Source: a bacterium
GTDB lineage: Bacteria > Pseudomonadota > Gammaproteobacteria > Burkholderiales > Thiobacillaceae
Direction of reading: 5' to 3'
Length of the DNA stretch: 64,000 nt
Assembly (NCBI GenBank): GCA_009772925.1
Contig: WOUQ01000001.1
Location: 1-64,000, forward strand
Shown: positions 30,117-43,037 of the stretch, in pieces
How positions within the stretch are numbered: the stretch's first letter is position 1
Layout: each line of letters opens with the position of its first letter
Position numbers and translations under genes: made by a program
Notes under the pieces: model-generated
Told to the model about the DNA's origin: nothing
The model's input: the letters and a program-made list of their open reading frames with translations, nothing else
The model's database searches: none

Positions 30117-31040
30117 TCAGGCAGCCGGTTCCGCCTTGGCAACGCGCCATGCGTCGAGGGCATCGAGGGTTTCCCGCATGCCCGGACACAGGCGCACTCC
30201 GGGCAAGGCTACGCTGACCCGGGCGCAGCCGGCGCCGCCGGCCCATAGTTCCGTTTCCTCGTCTAGACGCTGCCGCAGCTCGGCCAGGGCGGGGGCGATG
30301 CGGCGGTGCGGATAGGCGATGCTGAAGGACAGGGCGACCACGTTGGCATTGTAGGCAGGCGCCGCCTGCGCGATGTCCTGCACCGGCGTCTGCGTGCCCA
30401 GCGACACGCAGTAGGCGCCGCGCAGGGAGAGCAGGGCGGCGACCATGAGCAGGCCGATGCCGTGTTCTTCCTCCGGCAGGGTGGTCAGCAGCACGCGCGG
30501 CCGCGCGCGGGTGTCGGCCAATTGCGCGACGACGTCGCGCAGCAGGCCCTGGACGACCTCGGTGTAGACGTGTTCCTCGTGGATATCGATGCCGCCACGC
30601 GCCCAGGATTCGCCCACGGCATGGTTGAGGGGGGTAATGACGTCCTGGACAAAACTCTCAACGCCACGACTCAGCATTTCCCGTTGCAGGCGCCGGCGCA
30701 GCCCCGCCGGATCCTCGTGGCGCAACATTTCCAGGGTCAGGTCGCGCATCCGGGCGATGCTGGCCGTCGCCTCGACAGGGGGTTTCGCCAGTATCAGCGC
30801 GTGCAGGTTCTCCGCGCTTTCGGCGACGATGCGCGAGGGCCGCAGGCCTGTATCCATCAGGCGTTTGATGAGGCGAAGGCGGTCGACCTGGTCGGCCGGA
30901 TAGCTGCGTTCGCCCTGCGCGTCGCGCAGCGGCGCGGGAAATCCGTAGCGACTTTCCCATTTGCGCAGCACGTCCTTGGAGATTCCCGTCTCGCGCTCGA
31001 CGGCTCGGATCGACAGGGCTTCCTGATCAGCGATATTCAT
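30117..31040 (-). CDS. MerR-family regulator with B12-binding domain (CarH/LitR type)
   Basis: A 307-residue regulator. The N-terminal winged helix (LSIRAVERETGISKDVLRKW, then RYGFPAPLRDAQGERSY) is MerR-type. A helical segment with WARGGIDIHEEH (W-x9-EH type) and then EEEHGIG (an ExHxxG lower-ligand motif) identify the cobalamin-binding C-terminal domain of CarH/LitR light sensors, which hold adenosylcobalamin and release DNA on illumination. The ATG at 31040 is preferred over a TTG at 31076. Palindromes TGTCCTGGACA and TTGTCCAGGACAA in the divergent promoter region probably bind it. Light sensing is inferred from the family and from the BLUF gene nearby. Confidence 0.85.
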   Translation of the reverse strand: MNIADQEALSIRAVERETGISKDVLRKWESRYGFPAPLRDAQGERSYPADQVDRLRLIKRLMDTGLRPSRIVAESAENLHALILAKPPVEATASIARMRDLTLEMLRHEDPAGLRRRLQREMLSRGVESFVQDVITPLNHAVGESWARGGIDIHEEHVYTEVVQGLLRDVVAQLADTRARPRVLLTTLPEEEHGIGLLMVAALLSLRGAYCVSLGTQTPVQDIAQAAPAYNANVVALSFSIAYPHRRIAPALAELRQRLDEETELWAGGAGCARVSVALPGVRLCPGMRETLDALDAWRVAKAEPAA

Positions 31041-31047
31041 CGTTGTC

Positions 31048-31122
31048 TGTCCTGGACAAATGTCTTGACATGGCAATCTTGTCCAACTATCTTACGTCCA
31101 TCGATGTAATTGTCCAGGACAA
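31048..31122. promoter_or_regulatory. Divergent promoter with paired CarH/LitR-type operators
   Basis: TTGACA (31065-31070), a 17-base spacer and TATCTT (31088-31093) form a strong sigma-70 promoter toward 31126. Flanking it are TGTCC-T-GGACA (31048-31058) and TTGTCC-A-GGACAA (31110-31122). The second ends 3 bases before the glutathione peroxidase start and replaces a normal ribosome-binding site. A half-like TGTC-TT-GACA (31061-31070) overlaps the -35. Bound regulator would block both divergent genes. Confidence 0.75.
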
Positions 31123-31125
31123 AAT

Positions 31126-31743
31126 ATGAAAACCTTCTCCTTGTCCATGCCTGTGTTGCGTCGCTTCCTGCTGCCGGCCGGCTTCCTCTTCCTCGTGACT
31201 GTCGCTGTGCTGCGGCCGACCCCGGCCATCGCCGAGTCCTGCCCTGAGCTGTTGCGGCACAGCTTTGCCGACCTCAATACCGGCGCGCCGGGCGACCTGT
31301 GCCAATACCAAGGCAAGGTCATCCTGGTGGTGAATACCGCCAGTTACTGTGCCTTCACCGACCAGTACGGCGGTCTCGAAGCGCTCTACCGCAAGTACAA
31401 GGACCATGGCCTGGTGGTGCTGGGCTTTCCTTCGAACGACTTCGCCGGCCAGGAGCCGGGCAGCAACCGGCAGATCGCCGAGTTCTGCCGGCTGACCTAC
31501 GGCGTGGAATTCCCCATGTTCGCCAAATCGCACGTGACCGGCGCGCAACGAAACGCCCTCTTTGCCGAACTGGCGCGGCGCACCGGCGAGGTGCCGCGCT
31601 GGAACTTCCACAAATACCTGATCGATCGCGACGGCAGCCGCGTGCAGAGCTTTTCTTCGTCGGTGCCGCCGGATGACCCGCGTCTGACGAAGCCGATCCT
31701 GCGCTTGCTGGAGACCGGCAAGAGCCTGAAACGCGAGACCTGA
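31126..31743 (+). CDS. Exported glutathione peroxidase family protein
   Basis: A 205-residue thiol peroxidase with a long signal peptide or anchor (to about residue 36, PTPAIAES). The catalytic Cys75 lies in NTASYCAFTDQY, Gln109 in AGQEPGSN and Trp159-Asn160 in WNFHKYL, so the tetrad is complete. The usual Gly after the Cys is Ala. It is the first gene of the run controlled by the CarH-type operators. It probably reduces lipid or hydrogen peroxides formed by light and singlet oxygen in the envelope, as expected for a photo-oxidative response. Confidence 0.88.
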   Translation: MKTFSLSMPVLRRFLLPAGFLFLVTVAVLRPTPAIAESCPELLRHSFADLNTGAPGDLCQYQGKVILVVNTASYCAFTDQYGGLEALYRKYKDHGLVVLGFPSNDFAGQEPGSNRQIAEFCRLTYGVEFPMFAKSHVTGAQRNALFAELARRTGEVPRWNFHKYLIDRDGSRVQSFSSSVPPDDPRLTKPILRLLETGKSLKRET

Positions 31744-31771
31744 ACGAATAAGGATGAGAGGAGACAACGCC

Positions 31772-31936
31772 ATGCACCTGCAGCAGAGCACCGCCACACC
31801 CCAGTCAGCCGAGCAATCCTCGGGGCTGGTTTCGCCGGTCCCGGCCGGCGAGCCCGCGGCCAGGCCGAGCCGCCCGAGCGAGCACTTCATTACCGAATGG
31901 GCCATCCATCACGGCGCCGACGCGCCGCGTAACTAG
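31772..31936 (+). CDS. Short protein of unknown function (54 residues)
   Basis: A small, Ser/Pro/Gln-rich protein starting at the ATG at 31772 behind GAGGAG (an ATG 18 bases earlier is also open). It ends with RPSEHFITEWAIHHGADAPRN. There is no signal peptide or membrane helix and I recognise no family. It lies 28 bases after the peroxidase and 12 before the methyltransferase, with AGGAGG leading into the latter. The conserved-looking C-terminal HFITEWAIHHGA segment suggests a real product. Confidence 0.5.
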   Translation: MHLQQSTATPQSAEQSSGLVSPVPAGEPAARPSRPSEHFITEWAIHHGADAPRN

Positions 31937-31948
31937 GAGGAGCACAGC

Positions 31949-33010
31949 ATGGGCGCCGCTGAACGAGCCATCGGTTGGGTGGAACAGGGCTACGTGCCGG
32001 ATGCCGTGATCCGGCGCGGCATCCGGCGTCTGTGCAAGGCGCGGCTGGAGGAGATCGCCGATGCCGACTGCGCGGCCGCGGCCGAGGCGGAAGCGGACTT
32101 CCTCGCGGCCATGGCGGCGGCGCCTGTCGCCGAAGTGCCGCAGCTCGCCAATGCCCAGCACTACGAGGTGCCGGCGGCGTTCTTCGCTCAGGTGCTGGGG
32201 CCCGAGCGCAAATACAGTTGTGCTTACTGGCCGGACGCCATGACCGATCTGGCCAGCGCCGAGTCCGCCGCGCTGGCGCTGACCTGCGCCCGCGCCGAAC
32301 TCGCCGACGGCCAGGACATTCTCGAACTGGGCTGCGGCTGGGGCAGCCTCACGTTGTGGATGGCCCGGCGCTATCCCGGCGCCCGTATCACCGCCGTCTC
32401 CAACTCCGCCTCCCAGCGCGCCTACATCGAGACCCGCGCGCGCAGCCTGGGTGTTTCCAACCTGCGGGTGATCACCGCCGACATGAACCATTTCGAGGCG
32501 GGCGCCCAGTTCGACCGGGTGGTGTCGGTGGAGATGTTCGAGCACATGCGCAACTGGGCCGCGCTGATGGCGCGCGTGCATGACTGGTTGCGGCCCGGCG
32601 GCAAGTTCTTCATGCACATCTTTGCGCACCGTCAGCACGCCTACCTGTTCGAGGACCGCGGCGGCGACGACTGGATGAGCCGTCACTTCTTCAGCGGCGG
32701 CATGATGCCCGCCCAGCATCTGCCGGCGCGCTTCCAGGAACACCTGCGCCTGCGCCGGCAATGGACCTGGAGCGGCCGCCACTACGAAAAGACCGCCAAC
32801 GCCTGGCTGGCCAACATGGACGCCCGGCGCGAGGCCATCCTGCCCATCCTGGCCGAGACTTACGGCGCCGATGACGCGCAACTCTGGTGGATGCGCTGGC
32901 GCCTGTTCTTCATGGCCTGCGCCGAGACCTTCGGCTACGACGGCGGCGAAACCTGGCGCGTCGGCCACTATCTGTTCGAGCGGCCCGCCGCGCGGGAAAT
33001 GGCGCCATGA
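31949..33010 (+). CDS. Cfa-like SAM-dependent methyltransferase (first copy)
   Basis: A 353-residue class I methyltransferase with the SAM motif LELGCGWGSLTLWMA, then ITAVSNSASQRAYIE and VVSVEMFEHMRNW. It belongs to the cyclopropane fatty acid synthase-like group but has the shorter form also seen in plant-type and coclaurine-like relatives. AGGAGG precedes the ATG. Its end overlaps the DUF2878 gene by 4 bases. Placement in a light-stress run suggests methylation of unsaturated acyl chains in membrane lipids; the exact product is unknown. Confidence 0.85.
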   Translation: MGAAERAIGWVEQGYVPDAVIRRGIRRLCKARLEEIADADCAAAAEAEADFLAAMAAAPVAEVPQLANAQHYEVPAAFFAQVLGPERKYSCAYWPDAMTDLASAESAALALTCARAELADGQDILELGCGWGSLTLWMARRYPGARITAVSNSASQRAYIETRARSLGVSNLRVITADMNHFEAGAQFDRVVSVEMFEHMRNWAALMARVHDWLRPGGKFFMHIFAHRQHAYLFEDRGGDDWMSRHFFSGGMMPAQHLPARFQEHLRLRRQWTWSGRHYEKTANAWLANMDARREAILPILAETYGADDAQLWWMRWRLFFMACAETFGYDGGETWRVGHYLFERPAAREMAP

Positions 33011-33567
33011 CCGCGGCCAGCCTGGCACGCCGCGCTGCGGCGGGTACGCGCACCAGCCCGGTGCTGGTCAACGCCCTGGCCTTCCAGGCCGGCTGGTGGG
33101 CGGTGGTGCTGAGCGCCGCCCGAGATGTCACGGCCATCGGCCTCCTGGTGGTGACCCTGGTGCTGGCCTGGCACCTGACGCGGGTGCGGCCGGGTCGCAC
33201 GGAAGCTGCACTGATTGCCGGCGCTGCCTTGATCGGCCTGGTCTTCGACAGCCTGCTGCTGGCCACCGGCTGGGTGGCATTCACCGGCGGCGCCCTGTTC
33301 GGCGTGCTGGCCCCCCTGTGGATGGTGGCGCTGTGGGCCAATTTCGCCGCCACCCTCAACGTCTCCCTCCGCGTTCTGCGCGCGCGGCCCTGGCTCGCCG
33401 CCCTGCTCGGCGGCCTCGGCGGTCCCCTGGCCTACTGGGGCGGCGCCGGCCTAGGCGCCATGCGCCTGATCGAGCCGCTGCCTGCCCTGCTCGTCCTGGC
33501 CGCGGGCTGGGCCGTGCTCACCCCCCTGTTGTTCCGCCTGGCCACCTGGCTGGAGGCGCGGCCATGA
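33007..33567 (+). CDS. DUF2878 membrane protein
   Basis: A 186-residue membrane protein with about five helices (for example LVNALAFQAGWWAVVL, AIGLLVVTLVLAWHL and LIAGAALIGLVFDSLLLATGW). The VFDS segment in the third helix fits DUF2878 as I know it. It overlaps the genes on both sides by 4 bases, so it is translated as part of the run. DUF2878 genes are regular neighbours of Cfa and DUF1295 genes in photo-oxidative stress clusters. No catalytic role can be assigned. Confidence 0.75.
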   Translation: MTAASLARRAAAGTRTSPVLVNALAFQAGWWAVVLSAARDVTAIGLLVVTLVLAWHLTRVRPGRTEAALIAGAALIGLVFDSLLLATGWVAFTGGALFGVLAPLWMVALWANFAATLNVSLRVLRARPWLAALLGGLGGPLAYWGGAGLGAMRLIEPLPALLVLAAGWAVLTPLLFRLATWLEARP

Positions 33568-34361
33568 CGCTGAGCGGCGCCGCCGTCGCCCTCGCCGCCG
33601 TCCTGCTGGCGGCCTTCGCCACCTGGCTGGTCAGCCTGGCGCGTCGCGACGTCAGCATCGTCGACAGCCTGTGGGGCCCGATGATCGCCCTGGCCCCCTG
33701 GGCCTACCTCGCGGCCATCGCCCAGCCCGGGCCGCGCGCAACCCTGGTGCTGGCCCTGGCCAGCGCCTGGGCCCTGCGCTTGGCGCTGCACATCACCTGG
33801 CGCAACCGGGGGCACGGCGAGGACCGCCGCTACCAGGCCATACGCGCCCGCAACGAACCCCATTTCGCCTACAAGAGCCTGTACCTGGTGTTCGGCCTGC
33901 AGGCCGTGCTGGCGTGGATCGTCGCCCTGCCGCTGATGGCCGCCGTCGATTCCACGCGGCCCCTGGGCTGGCTGGATTACGTTGGCGCCGGCCTGTGGCT
34001 CGCCGCCATCGTTTTCGAGGCGGTGGCGGACCGGCAGCTCGCCCGCTTCAAGGCCGACCCGGCCCATCGCGGACGCGTCATGGACCGCGGCCTCTGGGCC
34101 TGGAGCCGGCACCCCAACTACTTCGGCGAGTGCCTGGCCTGGTGGGGTGCCTGGCTGCTGGCGGTAGGTGCCGGTGCCGCCTGGACGGTGGTCTCGCCCC
34201 TGCTCATGACGCTGCTGTTGTTGCGCGTGTCCGGCGTCGCCCTGCTGGAAAAGGATATTGCCGAGCGCCGGCCGGCCTACCGCGACTACGTGGCGCGCAC
34301 CAGCGCCTTCATCCCCTGGCCGCCAAGGCGCACCGCGGCGCGCGCCACGGAATCGGTATGA
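33564..34361 (+). CDS. DUF1295 (steroid 5-alpha-reductase-like) membrane protein
   Basis: A 265-residue integral membrane protein with about seven helices and the C-terminal signature GLWAWSRHPNYFGECLAWWGAWL. This is shared with steroid 5-alpha-reductase and ICMT-type enzymes and binds NAD(P)H or SAM-like cofactors in relatives. It overlaps both neighbours by 4 bases. In this run it could reduce or modify a lipid double bond next to the Cfa-like methyltransferases; this is inferred from fold and context. Confidence 0.85.
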   Translation: MTLSGAAVALAAVLLAAFATWLVSLARRDVSIVDSLWGPMIALAPWAYLAAIAQPGPRATLVLALASAWALRLALHITWRNRGHGEDRRYQAIRARNEPHFAYKSLYLVFGLQAVLAWIVALPLMAAVDSTRPLGWLDYVGAGLWLAAIVFEAVADRQLARFKADPAHRGRVMDRGLWAWSRHPNYFGECLAWWGAWLLAVGAGAAWTVVSPLLMTLLLLRVSGVALLEKDIAERRPAYRDYVARTSAFIPWPPRRTAARATESV

Positions 34362-34987
34362 GCCCGCGTTGGCCGGCGTTCGCGCTCGCCTTGCTCACCG
34401 CCGGGACCGTGCAGGCGGCGGCCCAGGAAACCTGGCGCTTCCGGGTGTTGCTGGATGGCGACGAAATCGGCCGCCACGTGTTCGAGGCGCGCGGCGACGG
34501 CGCCACGCGGGAACTGGTCAGCCAGGCGGATTTCCGCGTGCGACTGCTGTTCTTCGACGCCTTCCGCTACGACCACCGCGCCACCGAACGCTGGCGCGGC
34601 GACTGCCTGGAGTCGATGCGCGCCCGCACCCGTCAGAACGGCCGCGTCGATACCGTGGAAGCGGCGCGCGACGGTGAAGGATTCGTGGTGCGTACCCCGC
34701 GCGGCGAGCAGCGCCTGCAGGGCTGCGTGCGCTCTTTCGCCTACTGGAACCCCGACATCCTGCGTGGCGGTCCCCTGCTGAACGCGCAGACCGGCGAGTC
34801 GGTGCCGGTCAGCGTCACGCCCCTGGGCCGCGAAACCCTGAGCGTGCGCGGGCGCCCGGAATCCACTCGCCGCTATCGCCTGTCCGGCCCGGACATCGCC
34901 ATCGACCTCTGGTATGCCGGCAACGGCGACTGGGTCGCCCTGGAGTCGCGCTTGCCCAGCGGCGTGCTGCGCTACGAGATCCTTTAG
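34358..34987 (+). CDS. DUF6134-like exported protein
   Basis: A 209-residue protein with a signal peptide (PRWPAFALALLTAGTVQAAAQ) and a beta-rich mature part: FRVLLDGDEIGRHVFEA, FDAFRYDHRATERW, CVRSFAYWNPDIL and RYRLSGPDIAIDLWY. The GD-IG-H and YWNP features fit the DUF6134 group of periplasmic proteins as I remember it. It overlaps DUF1295 by 4 bases and is 9 bases before the lipocalin. A lipid-binding or lipid-transfer role is possible; function unknown. Confidence 0.65.
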   Translation: MSPRWPAFALALLTAGTVQAAAQETWRFRVLLDGDEIGRHVFEARGDGATRELVSQADFRVRLLFFDAFRYDHRATERWRGDCLESMRARTRQNGRVDTVEAARDGEGFVVRTPRGEQRLQGCVRSFAYWNPDILRGGPLLNAQTGESVPVSVTPLGRETLSVRGRPESTRRYRLSGPDIAIDLWYAGNGDWVALESRLPSGVLRYEIL

Positions 34988-34996
34988 GGAGCTGCC

Positions 34997-35533
34997 ATGC
35001 TGAAGTCCACCCTGCTAGCCACCGCCGCCCTGTTCCTGGCCGGCTGCCAGTCCGCGCCGCGACCGCCCATCGCCCTGGCCGGGCCGGTCGACCTGCCGCG
35101 CTTCATGGGCGACTGGTACGTCATCGCCAACATCCCCACCTTCCTGGAGAAGGGCGCCCACAACGCGGTGGAGTCCTACCGGCTGGAGCCGGACGGCAGC
35201 ATCGCCACCACCTTCACCTTCCGCGCCGGCGCCTTCGACGGCCCGGAAAAACGCTACACGCCGCGCGGCTTCGTGCGCGAGGGCCAGGGCAACGCGGTGT
35301 GGGGCATGCAGTTCCTCTGGCCGATCCAGGCCGACTTCCGCATCGTCTATCTCACCCCGGATTACGGCCAGACCGTGATCGGCCGCGAGGCGCGCGACTA
35401 TGTCTGGATCATGGCGCGCACGCCGGCGATTCCGGAGGCCGACTACCAGTCCATCCTGGCCTTCCTGGCCGGACAGGGCTACGACGTCACCCGTATCCAG
35501 CGGGTGCCGCAACGCTGGGAGAAATCATCGTGA
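34997..35533 (+). CDS. Lipocalin family lipoprotein (Blc-like, first copy)
   Basis: A 178-residue lipoprotein. The signal sequence ends at lipobox LAGC (Cys16). The lipocalin core carries FMGDWYVIANIPTF (GxW motif), TFTFRAGAF and DYVWIMARTP, as in bacterial Blc proteins that bind lysophospholipids or fatty acids at the outer membrane. GGAGCTGCC precedes the ATG. It overlaps the FAD enzyme start by 4 bases. It differs strongly from the second lipocalin in the same run (38826), so they are not a recent duplicate. Confidence 0.9.
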   Translation: MLKSTLLATAALFLAGCQSAPRPPIALAGPVDLPRFMGDWYVIANIPTFLEKGAHNAVESYRLEPDGSIATTFTFRAGAFDGPEKRYTPRGFVREGQGNAVWGMQFLWPIQADFRIVYLTPDYGQTVIGREARDYVWIMARTPAIPEADYQSILAFLAGQGYDVTRIQRVPQRWEKSS

Positions 35534-36804
35534 AGATCGCCATCATCGGCAGCGGCATCGCCGGGCTCACCGCCGCGCACCACCTGCATCCCGAGCACGA
35601 CATCAGCGTGTTCGAGGCCGGCGAGCACATCGGCGGCCACGTCCACACCCACGAGGTGATGTCGGGCGGACGCGCGCACCGGGTGGACACCGGTTTCATC
35701 GTCTTCAACCACCGCACCTACCCGCGCTTCGTCGAACTGCTCGCCGACCTTGGCGTGGACAGCCAGCCCAGCGACATGAGCTTCGCCGTGAGCTGCGGCC
35801 GCAGCGGCCTGGAATACAACGGCAGTTCCCTCAACGCCCTGTTCGCCCAGCGCGAGAACTTGGTGAAGCCCGGCTTCTGGCGCATGCTCCAGGACATCCT
35901 GCGCTTCAACCGCGAGGCGCCGGAACTGCTGCGCCGGCCCGACGACGGCGAGAGCCTGGCCGATTTTCTGGCGCGCGGCGGCTACGGCGAGCGTTTCCGC
36001 GACTACTACATCCTGCCCATGGGGGCCGCCATCTGGTCCACCGATCCTGCCCGCATGCTGGCCTTCCCCGCCCGCTTCTTCATCCGCTTCTTCGCCAACC
36101 ACGGCCTGCTGTCCCTGGACGACCGGCCGCAGTGGCGGGTGATCCGGGGTGGCTCCCGCGCCTACGTCGAGCGCCTGGTGGCGCCGTTCCGCGAGCGCGT
36201 GCGCCTGGCCACGCCGGTGCGGCGTCTGGCGCGCCGGCCGGATCACGTGACCGTCTACACGGACGCGGGCGCCGAGCGCTTCGACGCGGTGTTCATGGCC
36301 TGCCACAGCGACCAGGCCCTGGCCCTGCTGGACGTCCCCTCGCCGCAGGAGGCGGAGGTGCTGGGCGCGATTCCCTACCAGGCCAACGAGGCGGTGCTGC
36401 ACACCGATACCCGCCTGCTGCCCAGGAAACGCCTGGCCTGGGCGGCCTGGAACTACCGCATGCCCGATGGGCCCGGCGGGCGCGTGAGCCTGACCTACAA
36501 TATGAACATCCTGCAAAGCCTGGACGCGGAGGACACCTTCTGCGTCAGCCTCAACCCGGGTGAGCGCATCGATCCCCGGCGGGTGCTCGCGCGCATGACC
36601 TACCACCACCCCCTGTTCACCCGCGCCGGCGTCGCCGCCCAGGGCCGCCACCGGGAGATCGACGGCACCCTGCGCACCTACTACTGTGGCGCCTGGTGGG
36701 CCAACGGCTTCCACGAGGACGGCGTGGTGAGCGCCCTGGATGCCCTGCGCCATTTCGAAGCGGACCACGGCCATGCAAAGCTGCCTCTACGTCGGCTGGG
36801 TTAG
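35530..36804 (+). CDS. FAD/NAD(P)-binding amine-oxidase-like oxidoreductase
   Basis: A 424-residue flavoprotein starting at GTG 35530 (MKIAIIGSGIAGLTAAHHL), overlapping the lipocalin stop. The dinucleotide motif GSGIAG, then FEAGEHIGGHVHTHE and a C-terminal YYCGAWWANGFHEDGVVSA block match the amine-oxidase/phytoene-desaturase-like proteins always found with DUF1365 and Cfa genes. R. sphaeroides has counterparts in its singlet-oxygen (sigma-E/ChrR) regulon. A desaturase or oxidase step on methylated acyl chains is plausible. Confidence 0.88.
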   Translation: MKIAIIGSGIAGLTAAHHLHPEHDISVFEAGEHIGGHVHTHEVMSGGRAHRVDTGFIVFNHRTYPRFVELLADLGVDSQPSDMSFAVSCGRSGLEYNGSSLNALFAQRENLVKPGFWRMLQDILRFNREAPELLRRPDDGESLADFLARGGYGERFRDYYILPMGAAIWSTDPARMLAFPARFFIRFFANHGLLSLDDRPQWRVIRGGSRAYVERLVAPFRERVRLATPVRRLARRPDHVTVYTDAGAERFDAVFMACHSDQALALLDVPSPQEAEVLGAIPYQANEAVLHTDTRLLPRKRLAWAAWNYRMPDGPGGRVSLTYNMNILQSLDAEDTFCVSLNPGERIDPRRVLARMTYHHPLFTRAGVAAQGRHREIDGTLRTYYCGAWWANGFHEDGVVSALDALRHFEADHGHAKLPLRRLG

Positions 36805-37549
36805 GCACCGGCGCCTGGCGCCGCGGCCGCACGACTTCCGCTACGGTCTGTGCATGCTGTGGCTGGACCTGGACGAGCTCGACCGGGTGTTCGCAGGTCG
36901 CTGGCTGTGGTCGACGCGGCGTCCCAACCTGGCCTGGTGGCGGCGCGCCGACCACCTGGGCGACCCGGCCATGCCGCTGGCCGACGCGGTGCGCGACGCG
37001 GTGGCGCGCCAAAGCGGCAGCCGCCCGCTCGGCCCCGTGCGGCTGCTCACCCACCCGCGCTATTTCGGTTTCGGCTTCAATCCCATCAGCCTGTTTTATT
37101 GCTACGCCGAGGACGGCACCACCCTGGAAGCGGTGCTGGCCGAGGTCACCAACACCCCCTGGCGGGAGCGGCACGCCTACGTGCTGCCCATGCGGCGCAA
37201 CCTGGGCTCGCCGGAGAAGCCGGCCTTCCGCTGCGCCAAGGCGATGCACGTGTCGCCCTTCCTGCCCATGGACCTGGAATACGCCTGGCGCCTGACCGTG
37301 CCCGGCGACACCCTGTTGCTGCACCTGGAAGACCTGGATCGGGGCGCCAGGGTGTTCGACGCCACCCTCAGCCTGCGCCGCCGGCCCCTGACCGGAACCA
37401 GCCTGGCCTGGGCCCTGGCGCGCTTCCCCTTCATGACCGGACAGGTAGTGTTCGGCATCTACTGGCAGGCCCTGCGCCTGTGGCTCAAGGGCACGCCGCT
37501 GTTCGACCATCCGCCGGCGGCCGGCACACCCCGGGAGACTTCCGCATGA
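36773..37549 (+). CDS. DUF1365 family protein
   Basis: A 258-residue protein of the DUF1365 family, with YVGWVRHRRLAPRPHDFRY at the N terminus and the signature HPRYFGFGFNPISLFYCY in the middle. The start at ATG 36773 overlaps the FAD enzyme by 32 bases; an ATG 33 bases earlier is possible. It is coupled by a 4-base overlap to the second Cfa-like gene. The FAD-DUF1365-Cfa trio is a widely conserved block in light and singlet-oxygen responses. Confidence 0.88.
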   Translation: MQSCLYVGWVRHRRLAPRPHDFRYGLCMLWLDLDELDRVFAGRWLWSTRRPNLAWWRRADHLGDPAMPLADAVRDAVARQSGSRPLGPVRLLTHPRYFGFGFNPISLFYCYAEDGTTLEAVLAEVTNTPWRERHAYVLPMRRNLGSPEKPAFRCAKAMHVSPFLPMDLEYAWRLTVPGDTLLLHLEDLDRGARVFDATLSLRRRPLTGTSLAWALARFPFMTGQVVFGIYWQALRLWLKGTPLFDHPPAAGTPRETSA

Positions 37550-38832
37550 ATGACACTGTCCTCACCCATCCCGAGCTGGCGACGCCCGCCGCCACCCCGC
37601 TCGCGGCCCTCGCCCGGCGCGCCGTGCTGGGCCGATTGCGGTATCTCGCCCAGGGCACCCTGCTGATCCAGGAAGGCGGTCGCCTGCACCGCTTCGGCAA
37701 CGGCCAGCCCGAGGCGCGGGTGCGCGTGCTGCATCCGGCGTTCTGGTCCCGCGTGGCCTTCGGCGGCAGCGTCGGCGCCGGCGAGTCCTACATGGCCGGC
37801 GACTGGCACAGCGACGACCTCAGCGGCCTGATGCGCCTGCTGCTGCGCAACCGGGCAGTGGTGGATGGCCTGGAGACCGGCCTGGCGCGGCTGTCGGCGC
37901 CGCTGCGCCGGCTTGCCCACCGCCTCAACCGCAACACCCGCGCCGGCAGCCGGCGCAATATCGCCGCCCACTACGACCTGGGCAACGACTTCTACCGGCT
38001 CTGGCTGGACGAGACCCTGATGTATTCCAGTGCCGTGTTCGAGCGGCCGGAGATGACGCTGGCCGAGGCTTCCACCGCCAAGCTGGAACGCATCTGCCGC
38101 AAGCTCGGCCTCGGCCCGCATCACCACGTGCTGGAAATCGGCACCGGCTGGGGCGGCTTCGCCCTGCACGCGGCCGGCCGCCATGGTTGCCGGGTGACCA
38201 CCGCCACCCTGTCGCGGCAACAGTACGAACTGGCGAGCGAACGCGTGGCGGCGGCGGGGCTGACGGACCGGGTCGAGGTGCTGCTGACCGACTACCGGGA
38301 TCTGACGGGACGCTTCGATCATCTGGTGTCCATCGAGATGGTCGAGGCGGTGGGCGCCGCCAACCTGGACACCTACTTCCGCCAGTGTGCCCGCCTGCTC
38401 AAGCCCGAGGGCGCCATGCTGCTGCAGGCCATCACCATTGCCGACCAGCGCTACCAGGTGGCCCTGGGCGAGGTCGACTTCATCCAGAAGCACATCTTCC
38501 CGGGCGGCTTCCTGCCCAGCGTCACCGCGCTGAGTGCGAGCCTGACCCAGGCTTCCGACCTGCGCGCCGTGCATCTCGAGGACATCGGCCCGCACTACGG
38601 CGAGACCCTGGCGCGCTGGCGCGAGAACTTCCTGGCTGCCGTCGACGCCGTGCGCGCCCTGGGCTACCCGGAATCCTTCCTGCGCATGTGGCTGTTCTAT
38701 TTCGCCTACTGCGAGGCGGGCTTCCGCGAACGCGACCTGGGCACGGTGCAGATGCTGCTGGCCAAGCCGGGCTGGCGCGGGGAGCCGGTGCTGGGACAAC
38801 TGCCGATGTCAGCCGGGGTGTCGCCATGCTGA
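37546..38832 (+). CDS. Cyclopropane-fatty-acid synthase-like methyltransferase (second copy)
   Basis: A 428-residue methyltransferase of the Cfa family, with SAM motif VLEIGTGWGGFALHAAG, FDHLVSIEMVEAVG and the family landmark IQKHIFPGGFLPS. The N-terminal lipid-binding region (FWSRVAFGGSVGAGESYMAGDW) is complete, unlike the first copy at 31949. It should act on unsaturated acyl chains in phospholipids, making cyclopropane or branched/methylated derivatives. It overlaps DUF1365 by 4 bases and the second lipocalin by 7. Confidence 0.92.
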   Translation: MNDTVLTHPELATPAATPLAALARRAVLGRLRYLAQGTLLIQEGGRLHRFGNGQPEARVRVLHPAFWSRVAFGGSVGAGESYMAGDWHSDDLSGLMRLLLRNRAVVDGLETGLARLSAPLRRLAHRLNRNTRAGSRRNIAAHYDLGNDFYRLWLDETLMYSSAVFERPEMTLAEASTAKLERICRKLGLGPHHHVLEIGTGWGGFALHAAGRHGCRVTTATLSRQQYELASERVAAAGLTDRVEVLLTDYRDLTGRFDHLVSIEMVEAVGAANLDTYFRQCARLLKPEGAMLLQAITIADQRYQVALGEVDFIQKHIFPGGFLPSVTALSASLTQASDLRAVHLEDIGPHYGETLARWRENFLAAVDAVRALGYPESFLRMWLFYFAYCEAGFRERDLGTVQMLLAKPGWRGEPVLGQLPMSAGVSPC

Positions 38833-39371
38833 AGCGGCTGCCTATCCTGGCCCTGCTCCTGCTGGCGGTGCTGAACCTGGCCGGCTGTACCGGCGTGCCC
38901 GATGGCGTCACGCCGGTACGCGGCTTCCAGGCCGAGCGCTACCTGGGCACCTGGTACGAGATCGCCCGACTGGATCACAGCTTCGAGCGTGGCCTCAGCA
39001 ACGTTTCAGCCACCTACGTGCGCCGCGAGGACGGCGGTATCGACGTGCTCAACCGCGGCTTCGACCCGGCCAAGGGAGCCTGGCGGGAGGCGCGCGGGCG
39101 CGCCTATTTCATCGACCGTCCCGACGTGGGCAGCCTCAAGGTCAGCTTCTTCGGTCCCTTCTACGGCGGTTATCACGTCATGGCCCTGGACCCGGACTAC
39201 CGCTGGTCGGTCGTGGCAGGTCCCGACCACGACTATTTCTGGATCCTGGCGCGCACGCCCAGCCTGCCCGAAGCGCAGGTGGCGGACCTGCTGGCCCGAG
39301 CCCGCCAGGCCGGCTTCGACCTGTCCGGCCTGATTCGCGTCGAACACGGCCGCGCCGCGGCTGGGCGCTGA
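38826..39371 (+). CDS. blc: Lipocalin family lipoprotein (Blc-like, second copy)
   Basis: A 181-residue outer-membrane-type lipoprotein. The signal sequence ends at lipobox LAGC (Cys21). The lipocalin core YLGTWYEIARLDHSFERGL, then LKVSFFGPFYGGYHVMALD and YFWILARTP match E. coli Blc closely in layout. It probably binds lysophospholipids or modified fatty acids released during membrane repair. It overlaps the Cfa gene by 7 bases and is 8 bases before the CIA30 gene. Confidence 0.92.
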   Translation: MLKRLPILALLLLAVLNLAGCTGVPDGVTPVRGFQAERYLGTWYEIARLDHSFERGLSNVSATYVRREDGGIDVLNRGFDPAKGAWREARGRAYFIDRPDVGSLKVSFFGPFYGGYHVMALDPDYRWSVVAGPDHDYFWILARTPSLPEAQVADLLARARQAGFDLSGLIRVEHGRAAAGR

Positions 39372-39379
39372 ACCATGCC

Positions 39380-39949
39380 ATGGCGCGCCTCGTCACCGTG
39401 TTGTTTGCCCTGGGCGGGAGCGCCTGGGTGATGGCCGCCGAGCCGCTGGTCCTCGACGACCGCCGCGATCCCGGCCTGTGCGCCGCCAACGGCGCCTGCT
39501 GGCGCGCGGTCACCGACACGGTGATGGGTGGCGTCTCCGGCGGCCGCCTGCGACCCGACCGGGTGGAAGGCCGGCCTTGCCTGCGCCTGACCGGTGAAGT
39601 CAGCCTGGAGAACGACGGCGGCTTCGTCCAGGCCAGCCTGGACCTGGACCGGCACGGTCCCCTGGATGCCAGCGGCCATGCCGGCGTGGAGCTGGAGGTG
39701 TACGGCAACGGCGAAACCTACAACCTGCATCTGCGCACCGCCGATACCCGCATCGTCTGGCAGTCCTATCGGGCGTCCTTCGCGGCGCCGCCCACCTGGC
39801 AGACGCTGCGCCTGCCGTTCGCCGCCTTCCAGCCCCACAGCATCGAGCGTCCCCTGGACCTGACCACCCTGCGCCGCCTGGGCCTGGTCGCCATCGGTCG
39901 GGAGATGCGGGTGGATCTCTGCCTGGCCCGTCTGTCCCTCTATCCCTGA
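39380..39949 (+). CDS. CIA30-domain protein
   Basis: A 189-residue protein with a short signal-like N terminus (ARLVTVLFALGGSAWVMAAE). The CIA30/NADH:ubiquinone intermediate-associated domain is marked by WRAVTDTVMGGVSGG, a central VELEVYGNGETYNLHLRT and the C-terminal LRRLGLVAIGREMRVDL. In bacteria such domains look like carbohydrate- or lipid-binding jelly rolls and recur in photo-oxidative clusters. It follows the lipocalin by 8 bases. Function unproven. Confidence 0.82.
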   Translation: MARLVTVLFALGGSAWVMAAEPLVLDDRRDPGLCAANGACWRAVTDTVMGGVSGGRLRPDRVEGRPCLRLTGEVSLENDGGFVQASLDLDRHGPLDASGHAGVELEVYGNGETYNLHLRTADTRIVWQSYRASFAAPPTWQTLRLPFAAFQPHSIERPLDLTTLRRLGLVAIGREMRVDLCLARLSLYP

Positions 39950-39960
39950 AAGGAACCGCC

Positions 39961-40191
39961 ATGATCACCTGTACCCGCGACCCCATCACCCTGAACGACG
40001 TCACCAACCTGGCCGAAGCCCCCTTCGTCATCGAGGGGCAGGGGTCCGGCCGCATGAAGATCTACTTCGAGTCGGAGGCCAACCGCCGGGAATACCTGGA
40101 GACGGAGACGCACGGTGGCGTACGCTCCCCCGGCCTGCGCGCGATCTTCGACGCCATGGCCGACAACCCCAATACCGGCAGCATCAATTGA
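39961..40191 (+). CDS. Conserved-looking small protein (76 residues)
   Basis: A 76-residue soluble protein preceded by AAAGGAA. It contains PFVIEGQGSGRMKIYFESEA and RREYLETETHGGVRSPGL and ends NPNTGSIN. There are no Cys, signal peptide or membrane helix. I do not recognise a family with certainty. Its place between CIA30 and CbiX, in the same frame-tight run, suggests it is expressed with the light-response genes. Confidence 0.65.
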   Translation: MITCTRDPITLNDVTNLAEAPFVIEGQGSGRMKIYFESEANRREYLETETHGGVRSPGLRAIFDAMADNPNTGSIN

Positions 40192-40202
40192 GGCCCGCCG
40201 AC

Positions 40203-40583
40203 GTGTCGCCCCGCCATCTGCTCATCGTCGCCCACGGCAGCCGGCGCCAGGCCTCGAACGAGGAAGTGCGGCAACTCGCAGAGCGCGTGCGCGAACTGCG
40301 CTCGCCCGGCATCGATCACGTGGAAACCGCCTTTCTCGAACTCGCCGAGCCGGACATCTCGGCCGGGCTGGCCCGCTGTGTGGCCCTGGGTGCGCGCGAG
40401 ATCGTGCTGTTCCCCTATTTTCTTGCCGCCGGCACTCACGTGGTGGAGGACATCCCCGAGGTGGTGGCGGCCTTCCGCTCCGGCCATCCGCACGTGGCGG
40501 TGCGCGTCACCGGCCACCTGGGTGCCTCCGAGGCCCTGCCGCGCGCCATTCTGGACGTGGCGGCCAGCCCGCTAGCCGCATGA
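40203..40583 (+). CDS. cbiX: CbiX-type sirohydrochlorin chelatase, short form
   Basis: A 126-residue protein from GTG 40203 (GAGG nine bases upstream); TTG at 40188 would add five residues. AHGSRRQASNEEV and ELAEPDISAGL...GAREIVLFPYFLAAGTHV are the core motifs of short CbiX/SirB chelatases, which insert cobalt or iron into sirohydrochlorin. The His of AHGS and of AGTHV should bind metal. As the last gene of a run controlled by a B12-dependent regulator, it may supply cobalamin or sirohaem under light. Confidence 0.85.
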   Translation: MSPRHLLIVAHGSRRQASNEEVRQLAERVRELRSPGIDHVETAFLELAEPDISAGLARCVALGAREIVLFPYFLAAGTHVVEDIPEVVAAFRSGHPHVAVRVTGHLGASEALPRAILDVAASPLAA

Positions 40584-40741
40584 GGTTTTATCGGGTATCC
40601 GGAATCTGGTGTTGAAACTGGCGACTGGACGGTCATTGCAGATAGCATCGATAAGTCACTTGGAAGTTTGCAAGGATTGCCCCAATTTCTTACGATCTCT
40701 ACCATTCCTTTCATTTATATCAATATAGAAAGGTAAGGAAT

Positions 40742-40975
40742 ATGCTCGCCACGATGACATCCAAAGGCCAGATCACCATCCCGAAGCAGGCGCGTGATGC
40801 ATTGCAGTTGCATCCCGGTGATCGGGTCGAGTTTGTTTTCGACGATGACGGACGCTTGTTTCTGCTCTCGGCAAGCCGGCCGCTCGCAAGCTTGAAAGGC
40901 ATGCTGCCCAAGCCGGCTCGCCCTGTCTCGCTCGAAGAAATGGATGCGGCGATTGCCGCATCCGCACGCAAATGA
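40742..40975 (+). CDS. AbrB/MazE-type antitoxin
   Basis: A 77-residue antitoxin with the swapped-hairpin DNA-binding motif ATMTSKGQITIPKQARDAL and PGDRVEFVFDDDGRLFL, followed by a toxin-binding tail. An A/T-rich, near-palindromic sequence (TATATCAATATA, about 40716-40727) and AAGGTAAGGA lie just before the ATG and may form operator and ribosome-binding site. It overlaps the PIN-toxin gene by 4 bases. The pair is inserted after the light-response run and has a different promoter. Confidence 0.92.
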   Translation: MLATMTSKGQITIPKQARDALQLHPGDRVEFVFDDDGRLFLLSASRPLASLKGMLPKPARPVSLEEMDAAIAASARK

Positions 40976-41370
40976 TCGGGCTCGACACCAATGTGCTGGT
41001 GCGCTTTCTCACGCAGGACGATCCGCTGCAATCGGCGCAAGCCAATGCCTTCATCGAGCGGCAGCTTTCCCCGGCGGAGCCGGGCATCATCGGCCATATT
41101 GTCCTGTGCGAAGTAGGCTGGGTGCTGTCGCGGGCCTACGGCTATAGCCGCGAGCAGGTTGCCGATGCCCTGGGCGCCCTGTTGACCTGCCGTGATTTCC
41201 AGGTCGAATCGCCGGATCTTGGCATTCTCGCCTTGCAGGACTATCGGCATGGGACGGCAGACTTCTCCGATTACCTCCTGGGTCGCGCCCATCAGCGCCT
41301 GGGCGCTCGGTATACGGTTACGTTCGACCGCAAAGCGGCTGAAGTGTCGCAGTTCGCTCTGCTGGCTTGA
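40972..41370 (+). CDS. PIN-domain ribonuclease toxin (VapC-like)
   Basis: A 132-residue PIN-domain toxin. Acidic residues are in MIGLDTNVLVRFLTQDD (start), IVLCEVGWVL (about 45), DFSDYLLGRAHQRLG (about 97) and TVTFDRKAAE. Coupled to the AbrB-type antitoxin by a 4-base overlap. It is unlike the VapC at 10985, so the two modules were acquired independently. Expected activity is RNA cleavage when free of antitoxin. Confidence 0.92.
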   Translation: MIGLDTNVLVRFLTQDDPLQSAQANAFIERQLSPAEPGIIGHIVLCEVGWVLSRAYGYSREQVADALGALLTCRDFQVESPDLGILALQDYRHGTADFSDYLLGRAHQRLGARYTVTFDRKAAEVSQFALLA

Positions 41371-41418
41371 TGTCGGCGCCTGCGAAACCGGCCCACAGGA
41401 CCGGGCATCGCACAGGGT

Positions 41419-41904
41419 TCACCCCAGCAGGGCTTCGATGTCGCGGGCCAGTTCGGCCGGTGTGGTGGTCGGGGCGTAGCGGCGCGTCACCCGACCCTGG
41501 CGGTCGGCCAGGAACTTGGTGAAGTTCCACTTGATGGCTTCGCTGCCCAGCAGGCCGGGCGCGGCATGGGTGAGGAAACGGTAAAGGGGATGGGCGTCGG
41601 CTCCGTTCACCTGGATCTTCGCGGACAGGGGAAAGCTGACGCCGTAACGGCTGGTGCAGAAGTCGCGGATGCGGGCCGCGTCGCCGGGTTCCTGGTGGCC
41701 GAACTGGTCGCAGGGGCAGCCCAGCACCACCAGGCCGCGCTCCCGGTATTCGCGCCAAAGGGCTTCCAGGCCCACGTATTGTGGGGTGAAGCCGCATTCG
41801 CTGGCGGTGTTCACCACCAGCAGCACCCGCCCGGCGTAGTCCGCCAGGTTCAGCGTGCCGCCGTCCAGGGCGGGCAGGGTGAAGTCGTGCAGTGATGTGC
41901 TCAT
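41419..41904 (-). CDS. Glutathione peroxidase family protein (cytoplasmic)
   Basis: A 161-residue thiol peroxidase without signal peptide, from ATG 41904 (MSTSLHDFTLPALDGG). Catalytic Cys37 lies in NTASECGFTPQY, Gln71 in FGHQEPG and Trp126-Asn127 in WNFTKFL. It differs from the exported peroxidase at 31126 and would protect the cytoplasm. It lies downstream of the AF1514-like gene and its palindromic operators, so it may belong to the same light regulon. A GC-rich hairpin (about 41975-41995) lies between the two genes. Confidence 0.9.
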   Translation of the reverse strand: MSTSLHDFTLPALDGGTLNLADYAGRVLLVVNTASECGFTPQYVGLEALWREYRERGLVVLGCPCDQFGHQEPGDAARIRDFCTSRYGVSFPLSAKIQVNGADAHPLYRFLTHAAPGLLGSEAIKWNFTKFLADRQGRVTRRYAPTTTPAELARDIEALLG

Positions 41905-41972
41905 GTGGGGCCTGCGAAGCTGAGATATCGGTATGCGAAGACCCATGCCGTTAAAGGTCAAGCCGACCGGCC

Positions 41973-42003
41973 ACGCCCGCCCCGCCGGGGCGGACGGGGC
42001 GGC
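41973..42003. terminator. GC-rich hairpin between AF1514-like and peroxidase genes
   Basis: CCGCCCCG and CGGGGCGG arms around CC, extended by flanking GC pairs, form a strong stem just after the minus-strand gene at 42010. There is no clear T tract, so it may only attenuate or stabilise the transcript. Confidence 0.4.
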
Positions 42004-42009
42004 AGGAAC

Positions 42010-42423
42010 TCAATATTGATCGGCCATCCATTCGTCCAGCGGCACGCAGGCGCGTTCGTTGGGCTTGGCGCTTCCGCCCAGCAAGGGGGTCAGGCAGATG
42101 TATTCCACGCCGTCCTCGGCCACCAGGTTGCTGACGGGCAGCCTGCCCACGGTCTCGAAGCCGCGGGTCTCCATGAGAATGAAATCGAACTGGTCGCCGA
42201 CGGTGACCTCCAGCCGGCCGCCGTTGCCTTCCCCATACTTGGCCCACCAGGATTGGGGATCGATGCCGTCGTAGCTGGGCGAGACCGAATCGGTGCCATG
42301 CTGGTGCCAGGCCATGATGGTGGGGCTCTGCATCTGGCTGTCGCAGGCGGCGGACTTGGCCATTGCACTGGCCATGGCGAAAGTCAGATTGTGGTCGGGG
42401 TAGTCAACGCGAAGGGTCTGCAT
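42010..42423 (-). CDS. AF1514-like (DUF5619-type) small protein
   Basis: A 137-residue soluble protein. The layout LTFAMASAMAKSAACDSQMQSPTIMAWHQ, then P..YDGIDPQSWWAKYGEGNGGRLEVTVGD..DFIL resembles the AF1514/DUF5619 family (helix, LAW strand, GW-Y, GG-L-V pattern). The match is from memory and imperfect. AAGGAGAAG precedes the ATG, and two TTGTC-type palindromes lie 54-122 bases upstream. The shared operators suggest control by the CarH-like regulator. Confidence 0.55.
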   Translation of the reverse strand: MQTLRVDYPDHNLTFAMASAMAKSAACDSQMQSPTIMAWHQHGTDSVSPSYDGIDPQSWWAKYGEGNGGRLEVTVGDQFDFILMETRGFETVGRLPVSNLVAEDGVEYICLTPLLGGSAKPNERACVPLDEWMADQY

Positions 42424-42476
42424 GGTCTTCTCCTTGAGTGTGAGAGGTTGCGGAGGACAGCGTGTGTCACCCCGTA

Positions 42477-42545
42477 TTTATTTGTCTAGGACAAATAAAA
42501 TATAGTTCAAGGAAAATTTAGAAAATTTATTAAATGTCCAGGACA
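42477..42545. promoter_or_regulatory. Second pair of CarH/LitR-type operators
   Basis: TTATTTGTC-TAG-GACAAATAA (42478-42498) and TGTCC-A-GGACA (42535-42545) have the same core as the operators at 31048-31122. The spacing between palindromes is about 52 bases (63 at the first locus). The DNA between is unusually A/T-rich for this genome. They lie before the minus-strand AF1514-like gene. Confidence 0.7.
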
Positions 42546-42620
42546 GAAATGGATTGAACATGCCCAGGAGGCAAGCGTAAGCAGGCTGGGAATCGCAGGT
42601 TGGCCGAGGTGGCTGGGGAC

Positions 42621-43037
42621 TCAGGTGTCTGCTTCCGCCATCAGCGAAAGGAACAGATTCAGCGCCCGCTGCGCCCCGCAGGGCGCGGTGTCGCGCAGCC
42701 GGCGCAGGCGCTCGGCGGCCTGCGTGCCGGCGTCGCCCGCCACGCAGGGGCCGTAGCCCATGCTCCAGTCGGCGAACTGCCTGCGCTGCAACGGTTCCCG
42801 GAACAGCAGGCGCATATCCGCGTGGCGGGGATCGGTGCCCAAGCGCGCCAGCAGTTCGTCCAGCGCGGCACCCGGTCCCTCCAGTATCTGGAAGAACAGA
42901 CCGCCGTGGCATTGCAGGTGGCCGCTGATGTCGCGGCTTGCATTGTTTCGCCTGGATTGTTCGAGGATGCGCTCGATGTCGGCCTGCCCGATGCCGGGAG
43001 CGGCCACGCTGATGTAGGCGAGATGCTGGAGGGGCAT
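42621..43037 (-). CDS. BLUF-domain blue-light photoreceptor
   Basis: A 138-residue protein from ATG 43037, almost entirely a BLUF domain with a short helical tail. The residues that define the FAD photocycle are all in register with AppA: Tyr8 (HLAYIS), Asn32 (RRNNAS), Gln50 (LFFQILEGP), Trp91 and Met93 (ADWSMGY). There is no output domain, so it should signal by protein-protein contact, as in other short BLUF proteins. It lies upstream of the operator pair at 42477-42545 and adds a second light sensor to the region. Confidence 0.92.
   Translation of the reverse strand: MPLQHLAYISVAAPGIGQADIERILEQSRRNNASRDISGHLQCHGGLFFQILEGPGAALDELLARLGTDPRHADMRLLFREPLQRRQFADWSMGYGPCVAGDAGTQAAERLRRLRDTAPCGAQRALNLFLSLMAEADT

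Follow-up and report, generated by a model that had tools for sequence, protein, structure and literature searches.

Two putative photoreceptor genes lie about 12 kb apart in the first 64,000 nucleotides of contig WOUQ01000001.1 (assembly GCA_009772925.1; Thiobacillaceae, Burkholderiales), the stretch of DNA analysed here and referred to below as the window. One is litR (30120-31040, minus strand), which encodes a MerR-type regulator of the CarH/LitR group, and the other encodes a short BLUF protein (42621-43037, minus strand). An earlier note on this DNA had proposed that both belong to a light-responsive regulon and share an operator, a palindrome occurring in pairs near each of them. The locus raises the question of which protein reads this palindrome, which genes are controlled through it, and whether two kinds of light sensing meet there. 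The analysis presented below indicates that the motif almost certainly serves as the litR operator, as predicted from its pairing and conserved place, and that its second pair is a predicted control element of a DUF5619 gene.

The palindrome as first described, the 13-mer TTGTCC-N-GGACAA, is perfect only at 31110-31122; it has one mismatch at 31047-31059 and 42482-42494, and two at 42534-42546. All four sites of the earlier note were thus found in place, while the element that they have in common is the shorter 11-mer core TGTCY-N-RGACA. The predicted LitR operators, to which no strand is assigned, comprise a litR-proximal core at 31048-31058 (TGTCCTGGACA), which is kept upstream of LitR genes in relatives, and a core proximal to the glutathione peroxidase gene gpx1 at 31111-31121 (TGTCCAGGACA), 63 bp from the former and identified by the core scan and by conservation. 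The other two are located at 42483-42493 (TGTCCTAGACA on the DUF5619 strand), nearest to DUF5619 and kept in its orthologues, and at 42535-42545, a distal site found by the core scan 52 bp from the proximal one. The similarity in pair spacing that had been claimed is only loose, 63 versus 52 bp from start to start, but both values belong to the series 52/63/74/85 observed before LitR genes of the order.

The evidence for the motif lies in the pairing and conserved place of the sites, and not in their number. Across 399 genomes of the order, a search for two cores with 38-66 bp between them, a range outside which pairs at least 78 bp apart from start to start fall, revealed 12 close pairs, distributed over 11 genomes, while the reversed pattern gave none. 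By their coordinates, eleven of these pairs immediately precede LitR; the remaining one is at the DUF5619 promoter of the window. LitR matches at E<=1e-45 were present in 123 of the 399 genomes. To these were added the hand-picked genomes G002, G018, G020, G025 and G029 and 20 named contigs of relatives, all metagenome-assembled, 15 of which bear betaproteobacterial group names (judged from the names) and the nearest of which, VGVT01000043, has a 99% identical LitR. With one match at a contig edge (G038:C140) excluded, 169 usable LitR loci were obtained, or 148 after removal of copies. An exact core was found at 71 of these 148 loci, a core with at most one mismatch at 118, and two or more such cores at 77, whereas only 101 of 2960 shuffled upstream regions contained a core with at most one mismatch. 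These pairs and loci support the proposal of one regulon with one operator read by the CarH/LitR protein, and make the link between motif and regulator much stronger.

Adjacent cores 30-100 bp apart (n=76) are spaced by 62-64 bp in 61 cases, 52-53 bp in two, 65 bp in one, 74-76 bp in seven, 85 bp in four and 89 bp in one. Steps of about 11 bp would suit the helical repeat and the 11-bp register of CarH repeats described in PMC9304148. A Rayleigh test over the 11 distinct spacing values alone gave p 0.0017 at a period of 11 bp and 0.0067 at 10.5 bp; the values over all spacings overstate significance, since loci of close relatives are counted together.

Cores were also observed in other contexts. 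In L271:4074-4146 (G002:C37) and L270:2898-2970 (G018:C194), a conserved promoter-like stretch, TTGACA/TATATTA, is bracketed by two exact cores 62 bp apart. The gene downstream of it, BrnA-antitoxin-like in L271 according to Pfam and similar by eye in L270, begins after about 250-380 bp, so that there may be a long leader or a light-controlled small RNA. Genome G002 also contains a DUF3429 gene with two cores at its start, 132 bp apart, one of them overlapping the 5' end of its longest open reading frame (ORF); this gene is divergent from a small gene, which is followed by an ADP-ribosylglycohydrolase gene. Of the further exact cores examined in G018, G025, G029 and G039, several are inside ORFs or before genes unlinked to the regulon, and these were rejected as targets.

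The litR product (307 aa, stop codon at 30117-30119) combines a MerR domain with a two-part B12-binding domain, and its Pfam scores are all above the cut-off (MerR_1 49.2, B12-binding_2 28.3 and B12-binding 37.9 bits). In CarH, the functionally important Trp and Glu-His residues form the W-x9-EH motif of the helical bundle, and the His that provides the lower ligand of cobalt belongs to the ExHxxG motif. The solved structures closest to LitR are the T. thermophilus CarH entries (E ~1e-29), with the Trp, the Glu-His and the cobalt-ligand His aligned, and all four residues are retained in 144 of 147 LitR genes. With these B12-photosensor residues kept, the earlier description of a CarH/LitR-like regulator is supported. 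Since both the B12 domains and these four residues are kept, the protein, judged by its residues, is a class I LitR/CarH, and not a member of class II, characterised by an incomplete B12 domain, or class III, as these classes are described in PMC9758184. Besides its single litR, the genome contains a distant paralogue on contig C63 (30% identity) and, on C1, a partial match at 27%. The paralogue (G000:C63:29921-30625) is a MerR-like gene with a B12-binding-like region, and small ORFs with CxxCH cytochrome-like motifs, detected by eye, adjoin it.

Between the two operators at litR, a consensus scan predicted a sigma-70-like promoter directed toward gpx1 (TTGACA-17-TATCTT, 31065-31093, plus strand, 10/12), overlapped by a divergent litR-ward promoter (TGGACA-16-TAAGAT). 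Conserved predicted sites around a consensus promoter correspond to the class I arrangement of an operator over the target promoter. The plus-strand series from which litR faces away begins with gpx1 (31126-31743; Pfam GSHPx, with an N-terminal hydrophobic, export-signal-like stretch by eye) and continues as a putative operon, according to Pfam, with the CMAS methyltransferase cfa1 (31949-33010), DUF2878, DUF1295 and DUF6134 genes (33007-34987), lipocalin 1 (34997-35533, Lipocalin_2), a flavin adenine dinucleotide (FAD) amine-oxidase-like enzyme (35527-36804, Amino_oxidase), a DUF1365 protein (36740-37549), a second CMAS methyltransferase, cfa2 (37546-38832), lipocalin 2 (38829-39371) and a CIA30-domain protein (39380-39949); the start codons of the FAD enzyme, DUF1365 and lipocalin 2 genes are not fixed. 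A gene for a CbiX chelatase (Pfam, 40188-40583, plus strand) follows after a gap of 238 bp, which makes its membership in the operon uncertain. Of the 59 LitR loci that were examined, many of them incomplete, 8 have CbiX after this series of genes, with two of these 8 identical in sequence. This chelatase, ending a series under a B12-based regulator, could be part of the regulator's own cofactor supply. No Rfam family, including the cobalamin riboswitch, was detected in the window at gathering thresholds. The gene identities given in the earlier note, namely two glutathione peroxidases, two CMAS/Cfa enzymes, two lipocalins, an FAD enzyme, a DUF5619 (AF1514-like) protein and BLUF, agree with Pfam, and the predicted controlled genes match the target types of known photo-oxidative regulons, as that note had suggested.

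The second pair of sites lies before DUF5619 (42010-42423, minus strand; Pfam PF18505), which is followed by a second glutathione peroxidase gene, gpx2 (41419-41904, minus strand; Pfam GSHPx, scanned as 41419-41961). The order of transcription on the minus strand is BLUF, DUF5619, gpx2, and the pair is situated between the stop codon of BLUF and the start of DUF5619; by this position its expected target is DUF5619, probably together with gpx2, rather than BLUF. The earlier note had correctly placed the pair upstream of the AF1514-like gene, with the correction that it is downstream of BLUF. A search at E<=1e-6 detected DUF5619 in 23 of the 399 genomes, two of the 29 matches (L307 and L310) being dropped as they had no tblastn row. 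In all six close DUF5619 genes with 57-100% identity, which belong to this genome, G020, G018, G025 and, twice, G029, the start is preceded at 59-74 nt by the exact core TGTCCTAGACA; each also has TAGACA preceded at 16 bp by TTGAAC, replaced in G018 by TTGAAA. LitR is present in all five genomes carrying these genes. Among the six, the distal site, 52 bp away, is found only in the window and G020, while at G029:C142 a core with one mismatch lies 133 bp from the proximal site. At both G029 loci the site is located between divergent DUF3429 and DUF5619 genes. A search of solved structures with DUF5619 gave no convincing relative (best E-value 0.029), and the mean pLDDT of its single-sequence structure model was 44. 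In G029, the gene for an ABC1 atypical kinase that adjoins DUF5619 is also preceded, at about 15 bp, by an exact core (L117:7359-7369).

A candidate third operator, with one mismatch, was found inside litR at 30641-30651, over the codons TTT GTC CAG GAC (F-V-Q-D). The intragenic codons are covered in 147 of the 148 LitR loci, and at this position 22 genes have a core, exact in 16 and with one mismatch in six; the aligned LitR coding sequences contain 27 cores with at most one mismatch in all. Codon usage was compared with that expected from the other codons of each gene, in a post hoc test in which related genes were treated as independent, a circumstance that counts against reading too much into the following values. 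In the 15 FVQD genes, TTT encodes Phe in 13 versus 5.1 expected (p 7e-6), GTC encodes Val in 14 versus 7.4 (p 1e-4) and GAC encodes Asp in 15 versus 10.2 (p 0.002). Pooled FVQD and FVLD genes have TTT in 19 of 36 versus 10.4 expected (p 0.001), and genes with Phe in another context in 34 of 108 versus 42.5. Of 23 genes with both an intragenic and an upstream core, 18 have the two (taking the nearest upstream core) 395-422 bp apart and the others 344-467 bp, a distance that was dropped as evidence, since it is largely set by the protein alignment. It is probable, as far as codon choice can indicate, that the intragenic site is an operator in part of the LitR family. A familiar parallel is the auxiliary operator of lac located inside lacZ.

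The BLUF gene is the only one in the genome (Pfam BLUF, AppA match) and is the upstream neighbour of DUF5619. Photoactive BLUF domains have conserved Tyr, Asn and Gln residues around the flavin. As read from the alignment with AppA, the window protein keeps the corresponding Tyr, Asn and Gln, as well as the Trp. The earlier claim that BLUF shares the operator was not supported: apart from the pair preceding DUF5619 rather than BLUF, no 13-mer with up to three mismatches was found between 42547 and 47583, which leaves BLUF without a LitR site before it. Nor does the G029 BLUF, the closest orthologue outside the genus, have a core with at most one mismatch before the gene. Among 19 BLUF loci (flanks of up to 1.5 kb; 14 of 61 genomes searched, counting this one), only those of this genome and G020 have an exact core. 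A close BLUF (E<=1e-25) occurs in one of the 399 genomes of the order versus LitR in 123, of which 122 are without a close BLUF. BLUF is nevertheless found near site-bearing DUF5619 in two genera, at loci of three kinds, being adjacent in this genome and G020, 4.3 kb away in G029:C224 and, as a second, apparently frame-disrupted copy, about 2 kb away in G029:C142, with a photolyase-domain gene and DUF3429 between. At the last locus (L277), the two-frame BLUF-like sequence, the photolyase-domain gene, DUF3429, DUF5619 and an ADP-ribosylglycohydrolase gene were observed within 5 kb. In 34 genomes, BLUF (E<=1e-10) and LitR (E<=1e-45) were both found in seven, BLUF only in two, LitR only in five and neither in 20 (Fisher p 0.0037, a test that ignores phylogeny and combines different E-value limits for the two proteins). 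A scan of the minus strand found no terminator-like site between BLUF and DUF5619, so that read-through is possible.

We consider it likely, on the sequence features described, that LitR is a class I, adenosylcobalamin-type dark repressor acting on paired palindromes and released by light, and that BLUF is a separate input. In the dark, a B12-bound LitR oligomer would occupy the paired 11-bp palindromes, which at the litR-gpx1 region lie on either side of the sigma-70-like promoter of gpx1 and overlap that of the divergent litR, while at DUF5619 the near palindrome would overlap the likely, weak -10 region. Light would cleave the cofactor and LitR would leave the DNA, turning on the operon from gpx1 to CIA30 (perhaps also CbiX), litR itself and DUF5619-gpx2 against photo-oxidative damage. 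The closing of both promoters in the dark and their opening in the light are proposed from the CarH precedent as described in PMC4557120, PMC10442372 and PMC9304148. The intragenic litR site may help to maintain a repression loop, in the manner of the lac auxiliary operator, and BLUF would be a blue-light input next to a LitR target, outside the regulon.

A number of results weigh against this model. The strict core occurs only 7 times in the genome of 3,221,383 bp, as the two pairs and three copies inside ORFs, versus 12 for the reversed pattern; the 13-mer with up to two mismatches occurs in 148 places versus 234 for the reversed control, and single 11-mer cores are present in 59 of 61 relatives. 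The motif is thus not enriched by count, number alone proves nothing, and loose matches to the 13-mer were dropped as evidence; within the window, up to three mismatches gave 44 matches versus a shuffle mean of 18.5. The genome scan for further sites suggested in the earlier note added three exact cores, all inside ORFs, to a total not above the reversed control. Thirty of the 148 LitR loci are without a core of at most one mismatch. Such a core is likewise absent within 300 nt upstream of all 26 more distant DUF5619 genes (29-54% identity), including the second DUF5619 of this genome (G000:C22:230618-231022, 49% identity), and 22 other genomes with DUF5619 have no LitR match at E<=1e-45; here distance and the absence of LitR are confounded, because the site-free genes are both distant and, except for this genome's own copy, in LitR-free genomes. 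No sigma-70-like promoter at DUF5619 passed the consensus scan. The GG of the B12 fold is unaligned in 75-76 of the 147 LitR genes, since the local alignments stop before it, and FVLD genes have no codon bias (TTT in 6 of 21 versus 5.3 expected, p 0.44). Finally, tandem TnnACA repeats in an 11-bp step, as in CarH operators, were not found at the window promoter. If single copies are no commoner than the reversed control, the palindromes might be unrelated and their arrangement a coincidence, an objection anticipated in the earlier note as random occurrence, but this is scarcely credible in view of the pairing, place and conservation of the sites and the absence of any pair of the reversed pattern. 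That the motif is read by a different regulator, for instance the other MerR/B12-like protein encoded on C63, appears very improbable too: such a paralogue does exist, but the motif adjoins the LitR gene across the order.

The remaining alternatives concern the signal. LitR could read the motif and respond to B12 or redox state instead of light, governing a B12-responsive oxidative-stress set that ends in CbiX. The place of CbiX behind the operon here and at some other loci would agree with this, and the gene set fits peroxide stress as well, as in Shewanella, where according to PMC4336711 RpoE2-ChrR controls both a cfa/phr operon and a glutathione peroxidase of the periplasm; the retention of the four CarH residues and the lack of a riboswitch at threshold in the window make it improbable. 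It could also be proposed that blue-light-activated BLUF binds LitR or alters its binding to the operator, helping release, so that the B12 and flavin inputs meet. The conserved BLUF residues, the linkage to site-bearing DUF5619 and the co-occurrence with LitR are consistent with this possibility, for which E. coli BluF-BluR (PMC3509220) and P. mendocina LOV-PmlR2 (PMC9758184), as described there, provide precedents in which the action of a flavin photoreceptor is directed at a MerR/LitR repressor. We regard it as unlikely, given that most LitR genomes have no close BLUF, that LitR retains its own light-sensing residues, unlike the class II LitR described in PMC9758184, that BLUF has no LitR site before it, and that lit habitats could explain the co-occurrence. 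More doubtful still seems the specific version in which short BLUF is a blue-light antirepressor of B12-loaded LitR on helically spaced pairs looping to the intragenic operator, forming a dual-chromophore (green and blue) gate. Any role of BLUF in the switch is suggested by linkage and co-occurrence, and integration of the two photoreceptors is possible.

The operator design, DUF5619 as a target and the probable intragenic litR site are new here. Among the literature matches listed, nothing concerned this operator, DUF5619 under LitR, or BLUF acting on a B12-type LitR, although this is not a claim that nothing of the kind has been published. For B12-type LitR, the operator predicted throughout the order could provide target lists in genomes without experiments, and DUF5619, an uncharacterised family, becomes a likely member of the light regulon. 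The locus also allows one to test whether a single repressor receives input from two photoreceptor chemistries, and the spacing steps together with the intragenic site make a DNA-looping model of the CarH-type switch testable.

Several known systems resemble the one proposed. The ChrR-sigmaE/RpoE2 regulons of Shewanella and Vibrio share periplasmic glutathione peroxidase, cfa and photolyase targets, according to PMC4336711, where gpx, cfa and photolyase are controlled by RpoE2-ChrR in Shewanella, and PMC5241685, where a photolyase gene and a MerR-like regulator of Vibrio form a predicted operon that responds to blue light; they differ in relying on sigma/anti-sigma control and having no paired palindromic operator. 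The LitR of Burkholderia multivorans, which belongs to class III, is also betaproteobacterial, but it is described in PMC9758184 as dissimilar in the C-terminal sensing domain and is set apart by that description, whereas the window protein has a clear B12 domain. In E. coli, as described in PMC3509220, a BLUF protein (BluF) and a MerR-like repressor (BluR) are encoded near the target, with a palindromic operator within the promoter; BluF has an EAL domain, while the window BLUF is short, and the BluR-type operator TGTAC..GTACA was found at none of the 148 LitR loci. The class II LitR proteins PplR1/PmlR2 of Pseudomonas, which act with a short LOV protein, likewise use two sites around one sigma-70 promoter, one over the -35 region and the other between the start site and the ATG, and the light-induced genes of P. 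putida include a furan fatty acid enzyme (all as described in PMC9758184). These repressors are described as lacking a full B12 domain and acting via LOV, whereas here the B12 domain is kept and the candidate partner is BLUF; the PplR1-type site TGTACA-N12-TGTACA occurs at 0 of the 148 loci.

The closest parallels are found among CarH and its relatives. CarA of Myxococcus xanthus shows cooperative binding to inverted repeats that cover a promoter (PMC9304148) but acts without B12, while the window LitR keeps the B12 residues; the likeness lies in the described arrangement of the repeats. CarH of T. thermophilus and B. megaterium shares with LitR the MerR domain, the helical bundle, the B12 domain and, as proposed, the role of a dark repressor over the promoter, and the T. 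thermophilus protein also shares the W, E, H and H residues. No carotenoid gene is among the lipid and peroxide genes annotated in the window operon, unlike in CarH systems, and CarH operators are described in PMC9304148 as tandem 11-bp direct repeats (nnnnTnnACAn), in contrast to the 11-bp palindromes found here in pairs mostly 52-85 bp apart, with a probable intragenic site. Two tandem TnnACA repeats in an 11-bp step are nevertheless present, beside or instead of palindrome pairs, in 15 of the 148 LitR upstream regions versus 5 of 740 block-shuffled ones, and three in 4 of 148 versus 0 of 740. Therefore, the CarH-type and palindrome-pair designs may grade into each other.

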